The position numbers were made by a program, and so were the translations under genes. From Candidatus Thalassospirochaeta sargassi (GTDB taxonomy: Bacteria; Spirochaetota; Spirochaetia; UBA9216), in the NCBI GenBank assembly GCA_028532855.1, contig JAQQAL010000024.1, positions 1 to 64,000 of the forward strand: a stretch of 64,000 nucleotides of DNA, in the 5' to 3' direction. The notes under the pieces are model-generated. The model saw only the letters and a list, made by a program, of their open reading frames with translations. It ran no database searches and was not told where the DNA came from. Below, piece by piece: positions 18,252 to 28,773 of this stretch (position 1 is the stretch's first letter; every line of letters starts with the position of its first letter).

Positions 18252-18323
18252 AATTATAGCTTATCATAAAATCTTACGGATGTTATATTGAAAATAATCA
18301 AAAGAGAAAAAACAGAGGATGCT

Positions 18324-19751
18324 ATGAGAAAGCAGACGAAGATTGTTGCGACAATCTCGGACAGGCATTGTGAAACAGAATTTATTAATGAAATGATTGC
18401 CCGGGGAGTTGATGTATTCAGGTTGAATACAGCACATCAGAGTATTTCCGATTCACTTAAAGTAATAAAAAACATTCGGGCGATTTCTGATTTTACCGGA
18501 ATACTGATAGATACCAAGGGGCCCGAAATACGTACCGCTGATCTTGAAAATGAAATCGAGGTTAGAACCGGTGACAATGTGGCATTCGGCAGCATGGGCT
18601 GCAATGTGAGTGATATGCCCGGCGGGTTTAAAGTAATTCCGGTAAGTTATAAGAGTATTGTACATGATGTTCCTGAAGGCTCACAGATTCTAATCGATGA
18701 CGGCGAGACCTCGTTCAGGGTTACCGGAAAGGGCGAAAACTGCCTCTTTGCCGAAGCTGAAAATGACGGGTTTGTAAAAAACAGGAAAAGCGTAAACATT
18801 CCCGGTGTTCATTTGAACCTGCCGGCGCTTACTGAAAAGGACCGGGAATTCATTAAATTTGCAGCTGAGAATGATGTTGATTTCATTGCTCATTCTTTTG
18901 TGCGAAGTCCTGAAGATATAAAAGAAATAAATGAGATTCTTGCGAGTAATGACAGCAATGTGAAAATTATTGCAAAGATCGAAAACCGGGAAGGCGTAGA
19001 CAATGCTAAAAAGATACTTGAAGTATGTCATGGAATTATGGTTGCCCGCGGAGACCTGGGTATCGAAATACCAGCTGAAGAGGTTCCGGCAATACAGAAA
19101 AGACTGATAAAGTATTGTGTTAAACGGGCTAAACCGGTGATTACCGCTACCCAGATGCTGCAGTCTATGATTGAAAATCCCAGACCTACCAGGGCTGAGG
19201 TCAGTGATGTAGCGAATGCCGTTCTTGACGGTACAGCCGCACTTATGCTCAGCGGAGAAACCGCTTATGGGAAATATCCTCTTGAGGCGGTCTCAACGAT
19301 GGTGAAAATAGCAAAGGCTTCGGAGGATAGCCGTAAAGGAATATGGAAGCACGGGCTTTCCGAGAAATCAGGCGAAGTAAGAAAATTCCTTGTTCAGGCT
19401 GCTATTGAAGCCTCTGAGAAGCTGCCTATCAAGGCTATAATTGTTCATACCTATTCCGGGTTAACCGCGAGATTGATTTCATCTTTCAGAGGAAAGACAC
19501 CAATCTATGTCAGATGCCATGAACAGCGAATTGCCCGCGAATTGTCACTTTCCTACGGGCTGTATCCGCGTGTGATAAAGCTACCGGATACTACGGATGA
19601 TTTAATTGCTACTTCGGTCCGCCCACTGCTTGAGAAGGGTGTGCTTCAAAAAGACGACATGATTGTAGTGCTTGCCGGCAGTCCACCGCTGAAGACGAAT
19701 GAATCGAATATGATAGAGATAAATACTGTTTCAAACTTTATAATAGACTAA
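18324..19751 (+). CDS. pyk: pyruvate kinase
   Basis: The last step of glycolysis: PEP plus ADP to pyruvate and ATP. Family features are TKIVATIS at the N-terminus, TKGPEIRT, IAKIENREGVDN (catalytic Lys/Glu), GIMVARGDLGIEIP, and ITATQMLQSMIENPRPTRAE. The usual RxNFSHG segment reads RLNTAHQ, a variant I associate with Bacteroidota-type enzymes. The ATG at 18324 has GAGG seven bases upstream and is preferred to the TTG at 18288, which falls in the promoter region. TATATT at about 18282-18287 is a plausible -10 box. Confidence 0.95.
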   Translation: MRKQTKIVATISDRHCETEFINEMIARGVDVFRLNTAHQSISDSLKVIKNIRAISDFTGILIDTKGPEIRTADLENEIEVRTGDNVAFGSMGCNVSDMPGGFKVIPVSYKSIVHDVPEGSQILIDDGETSFRVTGKGENCLFAEAENDGFVKNRKSVNIPGVHLNLPALTEKDREFIKFAAENDVDFIAHSFVRSPEDIKEINEILASNDSNVKIIAKIENREGVDNAKKILEVCHGIMVARGDLGIEIPAEEVPAIQKRLIKYCVKRAKPVITATQMLQSMIENPRPTRAEVSDVANAVLDGTAALMLSGETAYGKYPLEAVSTMVKIAKASEDSRKGIWKHGLSEKSGEVRKFLVQAAIEASEKLPIKAIIVHTYSGLTARLISSFRGKTPIYVRCHEQRIARELSLSYGLYPRVIKLPDTTDDLIATSVRPLLEKGVLQKDDMIVVLAGSPPLKTNESNMIEINTVSNFIID

Positions 19752-19762
19752 GGGAGGTGTTT

Positions 19763-20302
19763 ATGACTAAAACTAAACGGAGCTATGCATCAGGGGGTGT
19801 TATCAACTGCGGATTCACCATCCATTGAGTGGATATGAAAAAGCTGATTTAAGCGCTATTTCTTCACGTGATGCCGACAGGGCTGATGGAAGCCTTCTTG
19901 TTCCGCTTTCTTCTCCAGTGGCTGAGGGTTAAGGATATTGTTGATACAGGTGAAATAGGGGACATGACATCATTGCAATGTGTTTTTTTCATATAATATT
20001 ATAGACCCCGGAAATATCAGAAAACAGGTAACTGCCGGTGGTGTTGTATTGCGGGAAATCGGCTGTTATGGAATAGCTGTGCCACAGCTAAGGCACAGTC
20101 TTATTACATATCAACGCAGATGCAGTCAGTCCAGAATGTAAGGATTACAGGAACTGAGGGAAGCATTGAAGTGATTATTCCTTTTAACACATTCAATGAA
20201 GCGGTATTGAATAAGGATGAAGTTTTTTTTACTATGATGGAAATATTTTCAAAAAGAAATCAGAAAATGATTGATTCTGTTTTTGAAGCCGGGGATAAGT
20301 GA
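19763..20302 (+). pseudogene. decayed Gfo/Idh/MocA-family oxidoreductase
   Basis: A strong ribosome-binding site (AGGGAGGTG) precedes MTKTKRSYASGGVINCGFTI, which looks like a damaged dinucleotide-binding start (family pattern GVIGCGxIA), then a stop at 19826. Further remnants follow in shifting frames: EKADLSAISSRDADRA, DIVDTGEIGDMTSLQC, and finally NVRITGTEGSIEVIIPFN up to 20302. These are the family's landmarks in the right order but compressed to about half the normal 1 kb. The SorC regulator overlaps the last codon, so the two were one operon. Confidence 0.7.
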
Positions 20303-21243
20303 TCGAAAAAAAAATACTTACAAAGATTGCATATTACTATTACAAGCTAGAATTGACTCAGAATGAAATAGCGCAGCGATTGGGTATGTCCAGGCAGCGT
20401 GTTAACAGACTTCTTAAAAGGTGTAGGGAAGAGGGGATAGTAGAGATTCGCATTGCCGGCTTTGAAGAGAGTTTTGTAGAGCTTGAAGGTGAATTGGAGT
20501 CCAAATACGGATTAAAGCAGGTTATAATTACTCCGGAAGCAGAAACCGGGCAGCTCTATGATGTCCTTGGTGCTGCAGCCGCTGATTATGCTGGTGAAAT
20601 TATCGCGACGCAGTCAATTATCGGTATATCCTGGGGGCGGACTATGTACAGTATGGCTCAGCACATGCCGTCTCGATCTCCAGGAAACCCTGAGCTGAAG
20701 GTTGTACAGCTTGTAGGTAATATGGGGGAGCTCAATCGCGATGTACAGCCGGATGAGGTGACGAGACTTTTTGCTTCAAAACTCGGTGCCTCCCCTGTAT
20801 TGCTGTATGCCCCCGTCTACATTAAAAACAAGGTTGCGAAGTTCACCCTTGTACATGAAGAATCCATAAAATCCGTGCTGGAACTAATGCCGCTATGTGA
20901 ATCTGTGTTCTTGAGTATTTCCGGTATTCAGAATAATTATACCTGGCTTAATCAGACTGTTATTGAAGATGAGTACATACGGGAATTACGCGAAAAGAGG
21001 GCGGTTGGAAATATCTGTCTGAGGTATTTTGACGAAGACGGCACCTGTATTGATTCGGAGCTTCACCGGCTTGAAATAGGAATAACCGGAGAAACGTTGA
21101 AATCAATTCCGAATGTAGTTTGTGCTGCCGGAGGTGAGGATAAGTATGATGCCCTTTACTCGGCTATTAAGGGCGGTTTTATAAATACCCTGATAACAGA
21201 CAAGGCCACCGCCGATTTCCTGAACCGACAGCAGCCTCTATAA
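20299..21243 (+). CDS. SorC-family transcriptional regulator
   Basis: A 314-residue regulator with an N-terminal helix-turn-helix (ELTQNEIAQRLGMSRQRVNR, then LLKRC) followed by a sugar-binding domain (IIGISWGRTMYSMAQH, VVQLVGNMGELN, and C-terminal AAGGEDKYDALYSAIKGGFI). SorC proteins sense phosphorylated sugars. The start is GTG at 20299, overlapping the decayed oxidoreductase. It faces the PTS operon and may once have controlled the decayed gene or still control the PTS genes. That link is inference. Confidence 0.88.
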   Translation: MIEKKILTKIAYYYYKLELTQNEIAQRLGMSRQRVNRLLKRCREEGIVEIRIAGFEESFVELEGELESKYGLKQVIITPEAETGQLYDVLGAAAADYAGEIIATQSIIGISWGRTMYSMAQHMPSRSPGNPELKVVQLVGNMGELNRDVQPDEVTRLFASKLGASPVLLYAPVYIKNKVAKFTLVHEESIKSVLELMPLCESVFLSISGIQNNYTWLNQTVIEDEYIRELREKRAVGNICLRYFDEDGTCIDSELHRLEIGITGETLKSIPNVVCAAGGEDKYDALYSAIKGGFINTLITDKATADFLNRQQPL

Positions 21244-21263: not shown

Positions 21264-21548
21264 TCAGATTTTTACAGAGTCGTTAATCTTTTCAAAATCA
21301 GATTCAATGAGCATTTTCAATTCTTCAATTGCTGCATCTTCATCAGGACCGTCTGCGGTAATCTTGATGGTGTCGTTCTGAGATACATTTAAAAGTATCA
21401 CCTTGATGATTGTTTTTGCATTTGCTGATTTTTCGCCCTTTGAAACCTTAATGTCGGATTCAAATAGTTTTGCAGTTCTGACAAATACATCTGCTGGTCT
21501 GGAGTGCAGGCCAGTATCATTTTTTACTACTATATCAAGTTCTTTCAT
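21264..21548 (-). CDS. HPr-like phosphocarrier protein
   Basis: A 94-residue HPr family protein. The phosphorylated His is in NDTGLHSRPADVF. The segment that normally carries regulatory Ser46 (KSIMGVM) reads AKTIIKVILL, so the serine is replaced by Thr and its surroundings differ. This suggests a dedicated carrier not governed by HPr kinase. It is the last gene of the PTS operon and overlaps the upstream small gene (ATGA). Confidence 0.88.
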   Translation of the reverse strand: MKELDIVVKNDTGLHSRPADVFVRTAKLFESDIKVSKGEKSANAKTIIKVILLNVSQNDTIKITADGPDEDAAIEELKMLIESDFEKINDSVKI

Positions 21549-21730
21549 TCTTTATACTCCTTATTATCATCGTTATCATTTTTTTCTGACCGGGATTTTC
21601 CTTTTCGTATGATCAATACAATACCCCAGGCCACAACAATTATACTTATTATTAACTGGTACTCGTAAACAAAATTCAGCGCTGAACGCCCCCAGTCTCC
21701 AAGCAGTGACTCTGCTATTTTTTCAAACAT
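21545..21730 (-). CDS. 61-residue single-span membrane protein in the PTS operon
   Basis: One hydrophobic segment (LIISIIVVAWGIVLII) is followed by a charged tail (RKGKSRSEKNDNDDNKEYKE). The gene sits six bases after the DeoR gene stop and overlaps the HPr start by four bases, which supports real translation. No homologue is recognised. It may be an accessory subunit of the transporter, but nothing in the sequence proves that. Confidence 0.65.
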   Translation of the reverse strand: MFEKIAESLLGDWGRSALNFVYEYQLIISIIVVAWGIVLIIRKGKSRSEKNDNDDNKEYKE

Positions 21731-21736
21731 GCTACC

Positions 21737-22504
21737 TCATACCATCGTAAGATTAATGCCTTCATGACTGAACGCTTTTTTAATGTTTTTATTGATACCA
21801 TTGTCAGTTATAATCCTGTCAATCTTTGAGAAACCACAGAGATAATTAAAACAGACATTTCCGAATTTTGATGAATCAGCGAGAAGGATAATTTCTTTTG
21901 CTATACCCATCATCCCGTTGATAACGGGAATTCTTGACGACTCAAAATAGGTAAGTCCATATTCTGCATCAATTCCATCGGCCGTCATGAACAGCTTGTC
22001 GGCATATTTGATGCCATCCATCGGATCCCTGTCGAAATTTTTAATTGTCGAGTACTGTTTTTCTATTTCGCCGCCAAGCATGAAAAGACTGATGTTTTCA
22101 AGTTCGGATAATTCAAGTGATAGGGTCAGCGAATTGGTAATTACCCTGAATTGGAAATCAAGCCCGCTGAAGATTCTACCGGCTAGTGTTGTGATGACTC
22201 CTGGCCCGATTATTATTGTTTCCTGTTCTTTTATCAGTGTAGAGCAGTACTCTGAAATCCTTATCTTTTCATTGATAAATTTACTCAGCATTGCTTCACG
22301 GGGAGGTCCAGGGTAATCTTTATGATAGAGGACTTCGCCCCCTTTCCCCTGATAAACCTGACCGGAATTTTCGAGGAGTTTTATGTCTCGTCTGATTGTG
22401 GCTGTTGAAACATCAAACCTTGCAGCCAAAGCCTGAAGAGTGGTTTTTTCTTCAAGCTGAAGTATTCCGGTTATCCCGTCCAGCCTTAATCTTTTATTCT
22501 TCAT
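21737..22504 (-). CDS. DeoR-family transcriptional regulator
   Basis: A 255-residue repressor-type protein. The N-terminal HTH (TTLQALAARFDVSTATIRRD) is followed by the DeoR sugar-phosphate sensor domain (VITNSLTLSLELSE, LFMLGGEIEK, LLADSSKFG). It lies inside the PTS operon and is the obvious candidate to control it, possibly through the repeated AAAATTG boxes around the operon promoter. Confidence 0.92.
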   Translation of the reverse strand: MKNKRLRLDGITGILQLEEKTTLQALAARFDVSTATIRRDIKLLENSGQVYQGKGGEVLYHKDYPGPPREAMLSKFINEKIRISEYCSTLIKEQETIIIGPGVITTLAGRIFSGLDFQFRVITNSLTLSLELSELENISLFMLGGEIEKQYSTIKNFDRDPMDGIKYADKLFMTADGIDAEYGLTYFESSRIPVINGMMGIAKEIILLADSSKFGNVCFNYLCGFSKIDRIITDNGINKNIKKAFSHEGINLTMV

Positions 22505-22519
22505 GCTGAATTCTTTTCT

Positions 22520-22855
22520 CTATAACAAATGAAAAAGTCCTATTGTTTTCTTTTTAGTAGAAATTTCATTATAAAGTTCAGCGGCTTTTTCTGATTTTTC
22601 AACTAAAACTTCAATACCCTTTTCCTCAAGTGCTGATATAGCTGCATCGCTTATTGAAATGGGCATTACAAAGCCAAGTCCTACAACAACCACTTCAGGT
22701 TCTGCTTTGAAAACGTCTTCAAGATCAGCCGGTTCAATTGTAGTTCTTGCGGCTATCCACCATTTGGTGTTCATATGATCTGGATATACTATGGTGTCTG
22801 AGCGGGAAACCTTGCCCATGAAGGCCATTTTTCCCATTGAAATTGAGTCTATCAT
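22520..22855 (-). CDS. Mth938-like domain protein
   Basis: A 111-residue protein matching the Mth938/DUF498 (NDUFAF3-like) fold: DSISMGKMAFMGKVSRSDTI at the start, PEVVVVGLGFVMPISIS, and EKGIEVLVEKSEKAAELYNE. The family is structurally known but biochemically undefined. Its place between the EIIB and DeoR genes, with gaps of 2 and 15 bases, is unusual and suggests a role connected with the imported sugar. Confidence 0.75.
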   Translation of the reverse strand: MIDSISMGKMAFMGKVSRSDTIVYPDHMNTKWWIAARTTIEPADLEDVFKAEPEVVVVGLGFVMPISISDAAISALEEKGIEVLVEKSEKAAELYNEISTKKKTIGLFHLL

Positions 22856-22857
22856 TG

Positions 22858-23139
22858 TTATTCCTTTATGTATGAAATTATCTTTTCCATATCAGCATCT
22901 ACACCAATGCCGGTAAGAAAAGAAAGGGTCTGAATAACGGGAATATCGCCAACATCACCTACCGGTGTGGTGGTTACTATAAGGTCCACCCCGTCAAGTT
23001 TTGAAGGCACTTCCGCAGCCTTGCACTGAATCAAATCTGCTTTTATACCTTTTTCCTGAAGATTTTCTTCAATTTTTCTAAGAACAACTGTAGATGTAGC
23101 TACTGCTGTACCGCATGAAACCAGTATTTTTTTTGCCAT
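22858..23139 (-). CDS. PTS EIIB component, galactitol type
   Basis: A 93-residue EIIB. The phosphorylated Cys is in ILVSCGTAVATST close to the N-terminus, as in GatB/SgaB-type domains. It takes phosphate from EIIA and passes it to the incoming polyol or sugar on EIIC. It lies four bases after the EI gene. Confidence 0.92.
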   Translation of the reverse strand: MAKKILVSCGTAVATSTVVLRKIEENLQEKGIKADLIQCKAAEVPSKLDGVDLIVTTTPVGDVGDIPVIQTLSFLTGIGVDADMEKIISYIKE

Positions 23140-23143
23140 AAAA

Positions 23144-24874
23144 TTACTCCTGTGTAAAGTTTTCCTGAAGGAAGACTTTAATTTCCTCTTCAGTTTTAAG
23201 TTTTAACAGCTTTTCAGCCGCCTTTTTACAGTCTTCATATTTTAAAGACCGGATGATAGACACTGCTTCAGGAAGCATCTGCCCTGTCATACTCAATTCG
23301 TCGATACCTAAACCGATAAGTATAGGTAATACTATCGGAATACCGCCAAGTTCACCGCAAATGCCTGCCCATCGGTTATTGGCGTGGGCATTATCAACGG
23401 CCGTTTTTAATGATCGAAAGATTGCCGGACTGAAGATCCGGTAATAATCGGAAACATTTTCATTTATTCGATCAGCACAAAGTACGTACTGCGTAAGATC
23501 ATTCGTACCAATACTGATAAAATCACACTCCTCTGTAAGGATGTCAGAAATCATAACTGCGGCCGGGGTTTCAACCATAACACCGATTTCAATATCACCA
23601 TTATAATCGAGTTTCTCCGACTCGAGTTCTGCACAGCATTCGACTATAAGTGTTTTTGCAGCGCGGAATTCAGTAAGATCAGCAACCATCGGAAACATCA
23701 TTTTTATGTTTCCATATGCAGCTGCACGCAGTACAGCACGGAGCTGTGTCTTGAATATCTCCCGATATTTCAGACAAACCCTTATCCCTCTTAATCCGAG
23801 AAAGGGATTATCTTCATCAGGAAGATCAAAACATTTTACTTCTTTATCTCCGCCGATATCAAGTGTCCTGATGACGACCATTCCGGGGTTAAGAGATTCA
23901 GCGATTGTTTTATAGAACTCAAATTGTTTGTTCTCATCCGGCAGGGAAACCGTGTCAAGGAAGAAGAATTCGGTTCTCAGAAGTCCGACACTCTTTGCTC
24001 CGAAACTACGGGCGCTATTCAGATCCTCAATTGAGCCGATATTGGCTGATAGATCAATTTTGCGTCCATCAATGGTTACTGCTTCCAGATCCTTCACAGA
24101 ATCAAGACGCTGCAGTCTATCTTCATGCTTCTTTTTTTCAATGAGAAAAATTTCTTTTTCTTCTTTATCTGCAGAAAACCAGATTTTGGCCGTTTCGAAA
24201 TCACGTGAATCAAGCAGGATTTCAGACTTAGGAGAGGTCTTGCCAATAGCTTCTGTCACACCGACTGCTGCCGGAATACCGAGGCTCTTAGCAAGAATTG
24301 CCACATGTGAAGTGACGCCTCCCTTCTCAGTAATCATACCGGCAATATTTTCTTTATTCATCAGGGCGGTGTCCGAGGGCATAAGGTCTTCAGCAACTAT
24401 TATTGAGTTTTCCGGTACACCGGAGAGATCGCCGGCCTGAAGGCCAAGTAAATTTCTAAGGATGCGTTTATAAACATCGGTTAAATCAAGAAGCCTCTGC
24501 CTGTTATAATCATCTTCACCGAGAGATGAAAAAAGATCTGAATATCCAGTGAAGATTGTTTTCAGTCCGGCTTCAGCACAAATCTTTTCTTCTGCAATTA
24601 TATCGGTTATTTCCTGATAGAATTCTTCGTCTTCAATCATCGTCATCTGTGCTCTGAAAATATGACCGAACTCTTCACCGAGATCTCCGCTGAGACTGTT
24701 TTTTATATCTTCCAGTTCGAGTTTTGAATTTCCAAAGGCATCTTTAAGCCGCAGAATTTCCTTATCAGGGTCAGAGGTGCTGACTGTTTCAAATGAGAGA
24801 TCCTGCTCAATATAAATGAAGGCGTTGCCTGACGCCATGCCGGGTGATGCACTTCTGCCTGTAATGTAACTCAT
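23144..24874 (-). CDS. ptsI: PTS enzyme I (PEP-protein phosphotransferase)
   Basis: A 576-residue cytosolic enzyme that takes phosphate from PEP and passes it to HPr. The active-site His is in EKGGVTSHVAILAKSLGIPA. The PEP-binding region is seen as SVGLLRTEFFFLD, RTLDIGGDKEVK, FLGLRGIRVCL and the C-terminal FISIGTNDLTQYVLCADR, and the catalytic Cys as AGICGELGG. Its start overlaps the EIIA stop. An EI inside a substrate-specific PTS operon is uncommon. Confidence 0.95.
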   Translation of the reverse strand: MSYITGRSASPGMASGNAFIYIEQDLSFETVSTSDPDKEILRLKDAFGNSKLELEDIKNSLSGDLGEEFGHIFRAQMTMIEDEEFYQEITDIIAEEKICAEAGLKTIFTGYSDLFSSLGEDDYNRQRLLDLTDVYKRILRNLLGLQAGDLSGVPENSIIVAEDLMPSDTALMNKENIAGMITEKGGVTSHVAILAKSLGIPAAVGVTEAIGKTSPKSEILLDSRDFETAKIWFSADKEEKEIFLIEKKKHEDRLQRLDSVKDLEAVTIDGRKIDLSANIGSIEDLNSARSFGAKSVGLLRTEFFFLDTVSLPDENKQFEFYKTIAESLNPGMVVIRTLDIGGDKEVKCFDLPDEDNPFLGLRGIRVCLKYREIFKTQLRAVLRAAAYGNIKMMFPMVADLTEFRAAKTLIVECCAELESEKLDYNGDIEIGVMVETPAAVMISDILTEECDFISIGTNDLTQYVLCADRINENVSDYYRIFSPAIFRSLKTAVDNAHANNRWAGICGELGGIPIVLPILIGLGIDELSMTGQMLPEAVSIIRSLKYEDCKKAAEKLLKLKTEEEIKVFLQENFTQE

Positions 24875-25356
24875 TATGATGCCTTAAGGTTTTTACCTAC
24901 GTTCTCGTGCAGGATATTATAGATTTGAGTTTCATTTTCTGCATCAAGGAGAGCTTTTAGAACCTCGTTATCCTGATATGTTGTAATCAGGGTTTCCAAC
25001 AGATCTCCGATCTTTTTCTTTTCCTTAAGTGCAAACATAGAAATAAGGCGTACTGGGATTTTTTCTTCAGGAGCGCCCATCACTGAGAATTCTACATTTT
25101 CAGGGAGCCTTGCAAAGCATATAATTGACTGGTTTACATGATCGGCATCGGTGTGCGGGATTGCAATCTTTAAATCCTCCATAGGCAGGCCTGATGGATA
25201 GTTGGCTTCGCGATCCTGGATAGCCTGTATGTACGATTCTTTCACGTAACCGAGGCTGTAGAGTTTTTCAGCCATTATTTTTAATGCTGTTTCTTTGTCG
25301 GATGCATCTACATTACAGAGAATGCAATCAGTTTTAAGTATATCTTCAATTTTCAT
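24874..25356 (-). CDS. PTS EIIA component, fructose/galactitol type
   Basis: A 160-residue EIIA_2 domain with the phosphorylated His in KIAIPHTDADHV. The ATG at 25356 (MKIEDILKTDCILCNVD) has AAGGA about nine bases upstream and fits the family N-terminus better than the in-frame ATG at 25410. It relays phosphate from HPr to EIIB. Confidence 0.9.
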   Translation of the reverse strand: MKIEDILKTDCILCNVDASDKETALKIMAEKLYSLGYVKESYIQAIQDREANYPSGLPMEDLKIAIPHTDADHVNQSIICFARLPENVEFSVMGAPEEKIPVRLISMFALKEKKKIGDLLETLITTYQDNEVLKALLDAENETQIYNILHENVGKNLKAS

Positions 25357-25415
25357 GTAAGGTATTTCCTTGAAATAAGCAGTATCCCGGACAGTGTGCC
25401 CGGGATACATAGCTA

Positions 25416-26816
25416 TTATTTTTCTTCGTTTTCCGGAGTGTATCCGGCGAGTTTATGCATTGCTGCAGGTTTTTTCTTAAGAATAACAAAAAGTAAAGCA
25501 ATTACTACTGCTACTATGATGTTGCCAACCCAGAAATTCTCAGCAAGCTTAAGAAACATTGCAGGAATCCAGTTGCCGCCGTCACAGATTGAAGTAATGA
25601 GGTTTGCGCCTTCCGGAAGTGCGAAGTCAGCTGCAACAGCTGCCGCAGTTGTTCCTTCAGCGAGGAAGTTCATAATATAGATTGATGGAATCATAAAAAC
25701 AGTTGAAACAACAACTGATCTGAACACGTTAGCTTTTACGATAGGTATAACTATAGCAACAAGAAAGGGGATTACAGCAAGGTCGCCGAACGGAATAACA
25801 CGGTTGCCCGGTAGAATAATCGCCAGGATTAAGGTTATGGGGACCATTATTAAGCCCGTAGCAATGGCTGTCGGGTGACCAACGATGATCGCTGAGTCAA
25901 GACCAATGTAGATTTCTCTATCACCTGCACGCTTCTGGAGGAAGTCACGAGCTGCATCTGAAAGCGGTATAAGGCCTTCCATTAATAACGATACCATACG
26001 GGGCATAAGAACCATTACGGCACCTAGGGTAACACCTGTCGAGAGCATTTTTGTAAGCCAGTCGGTCCAGGGGCCATCGCCCATATAAGCAACAGCGGAG
26101 AGGATCAGGCCTATTACAACGCCCATGATAAGGGGTTCACCCATAAGACCGAATTTCTTTTTAATAGTATCAGGATCACCTTCGATTTTGTTGAGTCCGG
26201 GAATTATATCAATTATCTTGTTGATAATAATTGCAAAGGGAACCGGAGCTGCGGAAAATCCATGGGGAATAGATACCCCGGGAAGTCCCATTGTCTGCTG
26301 AACAGCAGGGGCTGTCCAGTCTGCAAAAAACAGCATTGCAGCAGCGAAGAGCAGGGCCGAGATAAGGCCGTACCAGATGTTTCCTGTTGCCCACTGAACA
26401 AGTCCGCCGACGAAGGCGAAGTGCCAGAAGTTCCAGATATCAATATTGATTGTTTTTGTGACTCTGGTGAACAGCAGCAGTAAGTTAAGCAGAATTCCTG
26501 CCGGGATAATAAGTGTTGAAATGTTTGAGCCGAATGCGATAGAAGCACATGCCGGCCAACCAACGTCGATTATATCGAGTTTCAGGCCGAATCTTTCAAC
26601 CATCCCCTGTGATACAGGTCCGATGCTGTTAGACAGAAGTCCAATGATAAGATTAAGACCGATGAATCCAACGCCGAACATCAGCGAGGATCGAATTGCT
26701 TTTCCCGGTTTCGCTCCAAATATTAATGATAATATAAAGAGAATAATCGGGAGAAGAACGCTTGCGCCCAGTCCGAGAAAAAAATTCACGACTGTTTGTA
26801 GTGCACCAAGTTCCAT
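25416..26816 (-). CDS. PTS EIIC component, galactitol type
   Basis: A 466-residue membrane permease of the GatC family, with about ten hydrophobic segments and the substrate-loop motif IIVGHPTAIATGL. The ATG at 26816 has AAGGAGA at the right distance and gives the expected N-terminus MELGALQTVVNFFLGLGASV. It is the first gene of the operon. The actual substrate, galactitol or another polyol, cannot be told, and no tagatose or other catabolic genes are present beside it. Confidence 0.9.
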   Translation of the reverse strand: MELGALQTVVNFFLGLGASVLLPIILFILSLIFGAKPGKAIRSSLMFGVGFIGLNLIIGLLSNSIGPVSQGMVERFGLKLDIIDVGWPACASIAFGSNISTLIIPAGILLNLLLLFTRVTKTINIDIWNFWHFAFVGGLVQWATGNIWYGLISALLFAAAMLFFADWTAPAVQQTMGLPGVSIPHGFSAAPVPFAIIINKIIDIIPGLNKIEGDPDTIKKKFGLMGEPLIMGVVIGLILSAVAYMGDGPWTDWLTKMLSTGVTLGAVMVLMPRMVSLLMEGLIPLSDAARDFLQKRAGDREIYIGLDSAIIVGHPTAIATGLIMVPITLILAIILPGNRVIPFGDLAVIPFLVAIVIPIVKANVFRSVVVSTVFMIPSIYIMNFLAEGTTAAAVAADFALPEGANLITSICDGGNWIPAMFLKLAENFWVGNIIVAVVIALLFVILKKKPAAMHKLAGYTPENEEK

Positions 26817-26844: not shown

Positions 26845-26917
26845 AGAATATAACGAAAATTGCTATTTGTCAAAAGAAAATTGAAAAAAACGTCATTAAT
26901 GCTGCAAAAAAATTGCA
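26845..26917 (-). promoter_or_regulatory. PTS operon promoter with repeated AAAATTG boxes
   Basis: On the minus strand TTGACA (26868-26873) and TATTCT (26845-26850) are 17 bases apart. On the plus strand GAAAATTG recurs at 26855-26862 and 26876-26883, 21 bases apart, and AAAAATTG at 26908-26915, 32 bases further on. These are near whole helical turns and flank the -35 box. They are candidate operators for the DeoR or SorC protein. Confidence 0.5.
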
Positions 26918-27006: not shown

Positions 27007-28002
27007 ATGAAAAAATACAAATGGGGAGTGATCGGTACTGGAAAAATAGCAAACAGATTCGCAACCGCTCTGAATAACATAGCCGATGAGGCTGAGTTTT
27101 ACGCAGTAGGTTCGAGAAATCAGAGCACAGCGGAAGATTTTGCAGCAAAATATAATGCAAAGAAAGCATATGTTGGCTATGACGCACTTATGGCGGATCC
27201 GGATCTTGATGTAGTCTATATCGGCACTCCGGGTAAATTTCATCATGATGATGTTGTGAGGGCGCTTGAAGCAGGAAAGAATGTTCTCTGTGAGAAATCA
27301 CTTACCTCCAATGCTTCAGAAGCTGAAGACCTCATCAAACTTGCACGTTCAAAGAACCTGTTCTTTATGGAAGCAATGTGGACCAGATTTTTTCCAATTC
27401 ATGTGCGTATCCGGGAACTAATAGCTGATGGAGCCTTAGGCGATGTTAGAGGGATGGTTGCCAATTTCAGCGCTAAAGTCCCCGGCGGACCGAATGATAT
27501 TAATCGGTTCTGGGATGTAAACCTGGGAGCTAGTGCTCTTCTTGATATAGGTGCGTACGGCATTTCTTTCGCTTCAAGCCTTTTCGGCAAACCGGAAGAA
27601 ATCAATGGTGTTGCCTACATGGGTGAAGCCGGTTTTGACTATCAGAATTCGTCCTCAATCAGATATGCCGGAGGCCGAATAGCCACTATTATGGCGTCAC
27701 AGATATCTTATGATGTCAAGGAGACAATCATTTTTGGAACTGAAGGTAAAATAGAGATTGATGACCCTTGGTATAAGCCGGTCTCAATGACATTGACTAA
27801 GGCAGGAATGGCTCCTGAAAAAATTGAATATCCTCTTGATGGTTTTAACGGTTATGAATATGAGATACGCGAGGTTCAAAACTGCCTTTCAGCAGGTGAG
27901 AAAGAATCAACTATAATGCCGTTGGATGAAAGCCTTGAAGTGATAAGGACAATGGATGAACTTCGTTCACAGTGGGGTTTTAAATTTCCAGGAGAAAAGT
28001 AG
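27007..28002 (+). CDS. Gfo/Idh/MocA-family oxidoreductase
   Basis: A 331-residue NAD(P)-dependent dehydrogenase. The N-terminal Rossmann motif is GVIGTGKIANRFATAL, the family's EKP-type motif reads CEKSLTSNA, and the dehydrogenase-domain landmarks are DIGAYGISFASSLFG and FGTEGKIEIDDPW. It uses an unknown sugar or polyol derivative. It is divergent from the PTS operon and followed by an esterase nine bases later. The decayed gene at 19763-20302 belongs to the same family, so one paralogue may have been lost. Confidence 0.9.
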   Translation: MKKYKWGVIGTGKIANRFATALNNIADEAEFYAVGSRNQSTAEDFAAKYNAKKAYVGYDALMADPDLDVVYIGTPGKFHHDDVVRALEAGKNVLCEKSLTSNASEAEDLIKLARSKNLFFMEAMWTRFFPIHVRIRELIADGALGDVRGMVANFSAKVPGGPNDINRFWDVNLGASALLDIGAYGISFASSLFGKPEEINGVAYMGEAGFDYQNSSSIRYAGGRIATIMASQISYDVKETIIFGTEGKIEIDDPWYKPVSMTLTKAGMAPEKIEYPLDGFNGYEYEIREVQNCLSAGEKESTIMPLDESLEVIRTMDELRSQWGFKFPGEK

Positions 28003-28011
28003 AGCTGTTGT

Positions 28012-28773
28012 ATGGCAACAATCAAATGTAGAGTGAATTCTATAAAACTCGGTAAAGGGAATAATATCAGAGTTTTTGTTCCAGAAAGCGGCAGGGTCAA
28101 GTATCCGGCTGTGTACATGCAGCATGGCCTTGGTGATGATGAGACTACAGCCTGGACCCATTCTGATCTTGAAGCCTATGCCTCGGAAGCTGATATTATC
28201 GTGGTTACCGCTGATGCTGAAGCCTCCTGGTTCTGTAATGATTTCAGAAATGGTGAGGAGGGCTCCGGTGGGATTCTCTGGGAAGATTATTTTGCCTATG
28301 AACTGCCTTCTTATATAGAAGAAAACTTCCCTGCAGTTTCTTCAGCTGCAGGGCGGGGGCAATGCGGTTTCAGCATGGGCGGTTATGGAGCAATGATGCT
28401 GACCCTGCTTCATCCAGAGCGGTTTACTGCGGTGTCGGCACATAGCGGTTCCTTCATGTTCGGTCATGAATACAGGAAGAACAGACCCGAGCGTGCAGAA
28501 TTTATGAAGGTTGTTGCGCCTCCCGGAGGACGCTATGATTTATTCACACTGCATGAGCAATCTTTTGTAAAAGACGCGAGGATGCCGGCTATAAGATTCG
28601 ATGTCGGTGATCACGATCATCTACTGGAACATGGGCGGAGATTTAATCATTATCTTGAAGAAAATAATGTGCCTCATCAGTATATAGAAGCTGAAGGCTC
28701 ACATCTCTGGTCTTATGTTGACAAGCAACTCTCTGATAGTTTTAAATTTTTTGCAGATAAACTTAGTATTTAA
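28012..28773 (+). CDS. alpha/beta hydrolase, EstA/esterase-D-like
   Basis: A 253-residue hydrolase of the putative esterase family. The nucleophile Ser lies in QCGFSMGGYGAMM, the acid is probably the Asp in DVGDHDHLLEHG, and the His is in EAEGSHLWSYV. It has no signal peptide, so it is cytosolic. It probably cleaves acyl or formyl esters, perhaps of a sugar. Its stop overlaps the stop of the convergent kinase gene. Confidence 0.88.
   Translation: MATIKCRVNSIKLGKGNNIRVFVPESGRVKYPAVYMQHGLGDDETTAWTHSDLEAYASEADIIVVTADAEASWFCNDFRNGEEGSGGILWEDYFAYELPSYIEENFPAVSSAAGRGQCGFSMGGYGAMMLTLLHPERFTAVSAHSGSFMFGHEYRKNRPERAEFMKVVAPPGGRYDLFTLHEQSFVKDARMPAIRFDVGDHDHLLEHGRRFNHYLEENNVPHQYIEAEGSHLWSYVDKQLSDSFKFFADKLSI

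Follow-up and report, generated by a model that had tools for sequence, protein, structure and literature searches.

The window analysed here is a stretch of 64,000 nucleotides (nt) from the spirochaete Candidatus Thalassospirochaeta sargassi (GCA_028532855.1, contig JAQQAL010000024.1). At 21264-26816 it contains eight minus-strand open reading frames (ORFs) in the order EIIC-EIIA-EI-EIIB-DUF498/Mth938-DeoR-small membrane protein-HPr, an operon that encodes all five functions (EI, HPr, EIIA, EIIB and EIIC) of a chain of the phosphoenolpyruvate (PEP)-dependent phosphotransferase system (PTS). Our reading, to which we give a probability of about 0.7, is that the operon encodes a self-contained PTS of the galactitol (GAT) type, that its phosphocarrier escapes HPr kinase, and that the DUF498 protein and its membrane partner are an accessory unit of it. 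An original prediction, made from the sequence alone, had described this eight-gene operon; we find all ORFs at their place and on their strand, Pfam and NCBIfam agree on what they encode, and the 61-amino-acid (aa) membrane protein has no family. The phosphorylation-site residues are all intact (HPr His15, EI His, EIIA His and EIIB Cys). The permease clears the cut-off of the GAT-family profile PF03611 (300.7 bits versus 24.2) and misses that of the narrower TIGR00827 (453.7 versus 542.2); its sole PDB match is 9u82, 'PTS galactitol transporter subunit IIC' (E=1e-93), and it is 81-91% identical in G346, G347, G348, G344, G305 and G417. EIIB matches the galactitol IIB profile PRK10310 with E=4e-24 and 84.8 bits, under the cut-off of 95.

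The carrier of this chain belongs to an HPr lineage of its own. A profile made from six HPrs of such operons (modules, in what follows), all with Thr46, was run against 297 genomes of the class and matched an HPr in 287; a separate top group, with E-values from 7e-55 to 4e-29 (the next being 2e-25), was found in 23. Together with G305, these 23 genomes, whose neighbourhoods were all inspected, make up our module set of 24 genomes from six families (f1, f8, f11, f17, f71 and f78); as G469 contributes two, the HPrs number 25. Every one of the 25 HPrs has His15, and none has Ser at position 46, where Asn (16), Thr (seven), Ala (one) and Gln (one) occur; the altered Ser46 site noticed in the prediction, a Thr in the window, is a feature of the whole lineage. 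The 21 comparison HPrs, which were those in hand and not a random sample, and of which seven (L175-L181), all with Ser, were the next-best matches of the survey, have Ser46 in 19 cases and Lys46 in two. Ser16, Asp20 and Asn54 are each present in 25 of 25 module HPrs versus 0 of these 21, 17 of which have Gly54. With Thr46, the operon HPr lacks the serine through which HPr kinase exerts its control. The kinase is present where the Ser-less HPr lives, since an HPr with Ser46 adjoins the HPr kinase gene in all seven genomes of the family (the window's and six others). Once HPr kinase has phosphorylated Ser46, HPr is a poor EI substrate and the corepressor of CcpA, and catabolite repression in B. 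subtilis is affected when Gly54 is changed (passages of PMC12445079); in most Firmicutes, the phosphorylations of His15 and Ser46 are mutually antagonistic (a passage of PMC3526391).

The EIs of the modules group in the same way. In midpoint-rooted FastTree phylogenies, the 22 full-length module EIs, which keep the active-site His, form one clade with a support of 1.0 that excludes 15 other EIs (the module EI of G462 and one other EI, that of L122, were left out for length), and the module HPrs form one clade with a support of 0.84. A second EI/HPr pair elsewhere in the genome was the check that the original prediction had proposed for a private chain, and such genes exist. Seven proteins of the window's genome have an EI C-terminal domain, three of them plain EIs of 572-580 aa: the operon's own, one whose gene neighbours der (a GTPase gene), and that of a mannitol operon. 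Two more bear a GAF domain, as in EINtr, and the remaining two are 887 and 927 aa long. There are three clear HPr copies (the operon's, that of the mannitol operon, which keeps Ser46, and one directly after HPr kinase) and one weak match. Because the genome has two other plain EIs and two other clear HPrs, the operon is not the general PTS; that role, which we had considered, is ruled out by another plain EI and the kinase-linked HPr elsewhere. Among the two EIIC families searched, the genome has one PTS_EIIC-type permease (mannitol) and one GAT-type EIIC (the operon's); its 12 EIIA_2 domains mean that the general HPr may have other clients.

These multiple sets also speak for a rival explanation, namely that this is an ordinary polyol PTS with a redundant EI and HPr, which the general EI and HPr cross-feed freely, and that Ser46 was lost by drift in a paralogue that is little used. 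PTS carriers commonly engage in cross-talk, the mannitol operon carries one of the genome's several EI/HPr sets, and two other HPrs of the family have Lys46. Yet Ser46 is lost throughout the lineage, with four different replacements, while His15, Ser16, Arg17, Asp20 and Asn54 are fixed, and the EI and HPr clades match in the same loci. Since the neighbouring motif has been kept while the serine gave way to four different residues, the pattern points to selection against Ser rather than drift, and we consider redundancy unlikely.

Neither DUF498 nor the membrane protein is known to act in PTSs; the evidence for an accessory unit comes from gene order and co-occurrence. We judged 23 of the 25 loci, leaving out G471 and G505, which are cut by contig ends, and keeping G462 in spite of its cut EI. 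All eight genes stand in identical order in 12 loci, the window included, so that the arrangement is not a matter of chance; the exceptions among loci with both small genes are G405, which is without DeoR, and G462, which is cut inside EI. DUF498 and the membrane protein are both present in 14 loci, both absent in eight, and found as DUF498 only in one (G345) and as membrane protein only in none (Fisher p 2e-5, kinship ignored), and they therefore appear to belong together. The membrane proteins of G433, G463 and G405 in this count were assigned by position and then by alignment, and these very loci served to train the profiles. In G469, both small genes are present in one copy and neither in the other. 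Kinship was handled only by a parsimony count: on the EI tree of 22 leaves, 3 changes account for DUF498 and 4 for the membrane protein, and shuffled DUF498 labels need 6.7 on average, 2 of 2000 shuffles being as low as the observed 3. Both genes have a pN/pS (ratio of non-synonymous to synonymous change) below 1, 0.15-0.39 for DUF498 and 0.34-0.69 for the membrane protein, with synonymous sites near saturation.

Spacing is tight as well. In the window the gaps are 2 nt between EIIB and DUF498, 15 between DUF498 and DeoR, 6 between DeoR and the membrane protein and -4 between the membrane protein and HPr, the only long gap of the operon being that between EIIC and EIIA (59 nt, with the EIIA start taken as 25356). 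The overlap of the membrane-protein and HPr ORFs is 4 nt in 11 of 14 loci, and the EIIB/DUF498 gap is 2-3 nt in 11 of 14. In 13 loci, DUF498 lies between EIIB and DeoR, and DeoR and HPr flank the membrane protein; EIIB is encoded just before the pair's first member and HPr just after its second. Profiles of the two proteins gave no match in the 19 loci, carrying other PTS genes or GAT-type EIICs, that served for comparison; the eight loci counted as having neither gene were searched with them too.

The membrane protein has 60-63 aa in f1 and f8 and 118-136 aa elsewhere, with one hydrophobic segment and relatives in 13 other loci. Its net charge before this segment is negative or zero in 14 of 14 members, and that of the 18 residues after it is positive in 10, neutral in three and negative in one, a pattern that suggests an N-out/C-in orientation. 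It has no Pfam match over the cut-off and no NCBIfam family, and its profile found nothing in the PDB below E=0.75. Membership in the TMEM70 family was considered, since TMEM70 acts as an assembly factor in mitochondria and so do relatives of DUF498, but was dropped, as only one of 14 members matched, with 18.5 bits versus a cut-off of 22. For DUF498, a single PDB sequence, human C11orf67 (AAMDC; 2ab1, E=3e-10), matches at E<=0.01. The motif GKVxR is present in 15 of 15 module DUF498s, V16 and R18 each occur in one of six standalone relatives, and W32, W33, D44, G59 and G61 are common to both groups.

A search of 344 genomes of the phylum for DUF498 matched eight, of which the window's and G305 are PTS-linked and six are not; six of the seven genomes of the window's family have the gene. 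The idea that the module is nearly confined to this family proved wrong, since the HPr profile added f11, f17, f71 and f78 (f8 being known from the DUF498 search). Eight further module genomes with DUF498 lay outside the 344-genome sample, so that sampling, and not a narrow query, explains the missed families. A general partnership of DUF498 with the PTS is ruled out, as none of the six standalone spirochaete loci (one a 5.5-kb contig, one starting 255 bases from a contig end; a seventh, weak match in G016 was left out) has a PTS gene nearby.

These standalone loci also lend some weight to the view that DUF498 and the membrane protein have nothing to do with phosphotransfer, that DUF498 acts on the imported sugar phosphate or in some other process, and that the pair merely shares a promoter. 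DUF498 is without an assigned biochemical function, and eight module loci do without the pair. The fixed position of the pair inside the phosphotransfer genes, its close spacing, and the fact that its members are mostly present or absent together speak against this view, which we hold to be quite possible but not probable.

In the preferred reading, a self-contained PTS with an accessory unit, phosphate would pass from PEP to the operon EI, to His15 of the operon HPr, to EIIA, to EIIB and finally to the sugar or polyol carried by EIIC. Such a private EI/HPr pair would insulate the pathway from the other PTS chains, as the original prediction had proposed. Ser46, the site by which HPr kinase would throttle an ordinary HPr and make a corepressor of it, has been given up in this lineage, so that the chain should keep running while the kinase is active and should not feed into the catabolite-repression signal. 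Substrate would be sensed locally, by DeoR and by SorC, a regulator encoded next to the operon. DUF498 and the membrane protein, the latter putatively coupled by translation, would form the accessory unit, its most probable role being that of an adaptor or gate on the membrane side, acting on the soluble carriers at EIIC. A sharper version holds that this is a closed-circuit PTS whose HPr mirrors Crh, and that DUF498 and the coupled single-span protein are a new accessory pair, serving to dock or gate the carriers at the permease; we regard this as tentative and somewhat doubtful. That the EI/HPr set serves mainly a regulatory phosphorelay and not uptake seems very unlikely: four members of the lineage (G418, G293, G334 and G487) have only EIIA-EI-HPr locally, but the window operon has a full EIIC and EIIB with an intact Cys, and EIIC is strongly conserved, with 83% identity to another family versus 51% for EI.

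Several observations qualify the reading that we prefer or weigh against it. Private EI/HPr pairs are not special to this operon, since the mannitol operon has one and plain EIs number two to four in each of the eight genomes searched (those of the window and its family, and G305). Thr46, as found in seven module HPrs including the window's, could still be phosphorylated. The idea has survived the check on conservation of the two small genes that the original prediction had named, as they are kept across six families, though both are missing in eight of the 23 judged loci. One of the eight is G442, where EIIC, EIIA, EI, EIIB, DeoR and HPr are all present, so that the pair is not essential to the chain. 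As to DUF498 elsewhere in the genomes of these eight loci, the other copy of the module in G469 includes it, G293 and G334 belong by their handle numbers to the 344-genome sample and gave no DUF498 match, and the other five genomes are outside that search. G345 has DUF498, an HPr that is unlinked, and no recognisable membrane protein in a genome that is 86% complete (best E 0.39). The predicted structure of DUF498 is a low-confidence model with a pLDDT (predicted local distance difference test score) of only 49. No catabolic gene for galactitol or galactitol-1-phosphate was recognised beside the operon (the genome as a whole was not searched for them), and beyond the Spirochaetes our coverage consists only of plasmids and one scan of close relatives.

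Self-contained PTSs are as such of a known kind, since EI paralogues clustered with PTS transporter genes have been described (in the parts consulted of Comas et al. 2008, PMC2405797, which also place HPr kinase in spirochaetes, and in whose main text the word 'galactitol' is absent) and two Rhizobium plasmids have a GAT-type PTS with EI nearby. Like the mannitol operon of the window's genome, these plasmids keep private energy-coupling proteins near the permease; unlike in our operon, DUF498 and the membrane protein were not found there by profile. EIIC, EIIB and EIIA are in the same families as GatABC of E. coli (EIIC-GAT), to which the operon adds its own EI, HPr, DUF498 and membrane protein, whereas galactitol catabolic enzymes were not recognised nearby. 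Crh of Bacillus is an HPr paralogue that keeps Ser46 and has lost His15; the operon HPr lineage is the reverse, so that each has one of the two phosphorylation sites removed. PTS-Ntr (EINtr/NPr/EIIANtr) is likewise a parallel EI/HPr chain, but the operon EI has no GAF domain in Pfam. The 111-aa protein is by sequence a member of the Mth938/AAMDC/NDUFAF3 (DUF498) family, here encoded within a PTS operon. What is new, as far as our searches go, is the HPr lineage without Ser46 and the pair of DUF498 and membrane protein. A GAT-type EIIC was found in 18 of 339 genomes of the phylum, two of which are module genomes; 15 loci from 14 of the other 16 contain no DUF498, membrane protein or HPr, EI is nearby in one (G240), and 12 of the 15 have no EIIA or EIIB.

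Where HPr kinase exists, sugar uptake and catabolite repression are usually tied together by one HPr. A lineage with a second HPr, in which Ser46 is variously replaced and His15 kept, alongside a general HPr with both, is a natural test of what this serine costs. The biochemical role of the Mth938/DUF498 family, whose members range from archaea to human AAMDC, is not settled; its fixed place in a small operon whose output can be measured (sugar uptake, phosphorylation state of the carriers) makes its function testable by deletion. If true, the closed-circuit version would place the Mth938/AAMDC family in a concrete pathway of bacteria.

Apart from these findings, one locus outside the spirochaetes deserves mention. 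On a plasmid of Ilyobacter polytropus (L044 5492-6345), an Mth938-like gene directly follows sixA, which encodes a phosphohistidine phosphatase, and no PTS gene lies in the 12-kb stretch. E. coli SixA appears, according to a passage of PMC6282199, to act on NPr, the HPr of PTS-Ntr. This single locus, a stray clue, places a second DUF498 beside histidine-phosphate chemistry. A co-mention search of the literature found no report linking DUF498 or Mth938 with 'phosphotransferase system'.

Table 1. Features of the operon and its surroundings, in window coordinates
Feature	Position	Strand	Remarks
Pyruvate kinase, 3' side of operon	18288-19751	+	
Decayed second Gfo/Idh/MocA gene, between pyruvate kinase and SorC	19783-20296	+	Pieces 36% and 56% identical to 324-aa gene of L013
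SorC-family sugar-binding regulator, convergent with HPr	20299..21243	+	PF04198 E=1e-58
HPr of operon (private HPr)	21264..21548	-	94 aa; PF00381 E=1e-26; His15, Thr46, Asn54
Single-span membrane protein	21545..21730	-	61 aa; predicted N-out/C-in; 4-nt overlap with HPr start
DeoR-family repressor	21737..22504	-	255 aa; PF00455/PF08220; best NCBIfam SrlR, under its cut-off
DUF498/Mth938-like protein	22520..22855	-	111 aa; PF04430 E=3.6e-15, 56.3 bits versus cut-off 33 (cleared)
EIIB, galactitol type	22858..23139	-	93 aa; PF02302; Cys motif
Enzyme I of operon (private EI)	23144..24874	-	576 aa; TIGR01417 E=7e-165
EIIA, fructose/mannitol/galactitol type (PTS_EIIA_2)	24874..25356	-	160 aa; PF00359 E=1.5e-33
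Intercistronic RNA stem-loop, EIIC/EIIA junction	25382..25408	-	Predicted; 12-bp stem, 3-nt loop
EIIC, galactitol (GAT) type	25416..26816	-	466 aa, ATG at 26816; PF03611 E=2e-89
Candidate sigma-70 promoter upstream of EIIC	26845..26873	-	TTGACA-17-TATTCT; consensus match only
Gfo/Idh/MocA oxidoreductase, divergent upstream	27007..28002	+	PF01408
Esterase-like alpha/beta hydrolase, divergent upstream	28012..28773	+	Weak esterase-family matches under cut-off

For EIIA, the start at 25356 is more likely than that at 25410, as the resulting length matches that of relatives. A long stem is predicted at the EIIC/EIIA junction in 13 of 13 loci (the window and 12 others), at a constant position and mostly in unrelated sequence, those of G433 and G412 being alike. 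Against mononucleotide shuffles, z is -2.2 or lower in 10 of the 13, the other three having -1.6, -1.6 and -0.6. With no clean T run after the stem in the window and seven T in G346, both partial termination and mRNA processing are possible roles. Upstream of EIIC, a TTGACA-like box is seen by eye in five of six aligned relatives; two crude patterns found no cre-like sites there in seven loci, which have no palindrome in common.

The original prediction had noted a divergent oxidoreductase and an esterase as the only catabolic neighbours. Both are there, and the surroundings are richer than it had them, with SorC, a decayed Gfo/Idh/MocA gene and pyruvate kinase on the 3' side. SorC is also beside the module in G347, G348, G344, G417 and G489 (upstream in the last), G347 and G348 have an intact copy of the second Gfo/Idh/MocA gene, and the divergent one recurs in G346, G348, G344 and G417. 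The esterase is also found in G346 and G348 and is fragmentary in G344, while G417 has the oxidoreductase without it. The neighbours hint that the substrate is a polyol or cyclitol on which dehydrogenases act.

Other PTS genes were met in passing. The mannitol operon (L014 7529-15118, G000 C2) is one run of EIICB-EIIA-HPr-EI-mannitol dehydrogenase-regulator, the regulator being assigned by eye. More private PTS pieces occur in the window's family: HPr adjoins EI in L094 (G349), L097 (G348) and L099 (G345), and follows a mannitol-type EII (by eye) in L096 (G345); in both L094 and L096, residue 46 of the HPr is Lys. L011 502-2049 (G000 C35) encodes a protein of about 515 aa, part of which weakly resembles HPr (22-25 bits), and which also occurs in G346 and G344; the copy of the window's genome has no Pfam family. 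Eleven spirochaete GAT-type EIIC loci (L071-L081), 31-36% identical, have no EIIA or EIIB in the stretch inspected, and some lie beside LmbE-like or ABC-transporter genes (by eye). A small cupin gene adjoins the module in G305 and G405, of two different families (L189 7388-7834; L026 239-703). Pyruvate kinase stands beside the operon in four genomes (the window's, G346, G347 and G348); pyruvate kinase and the PTS both turn PEP into pyruvate.

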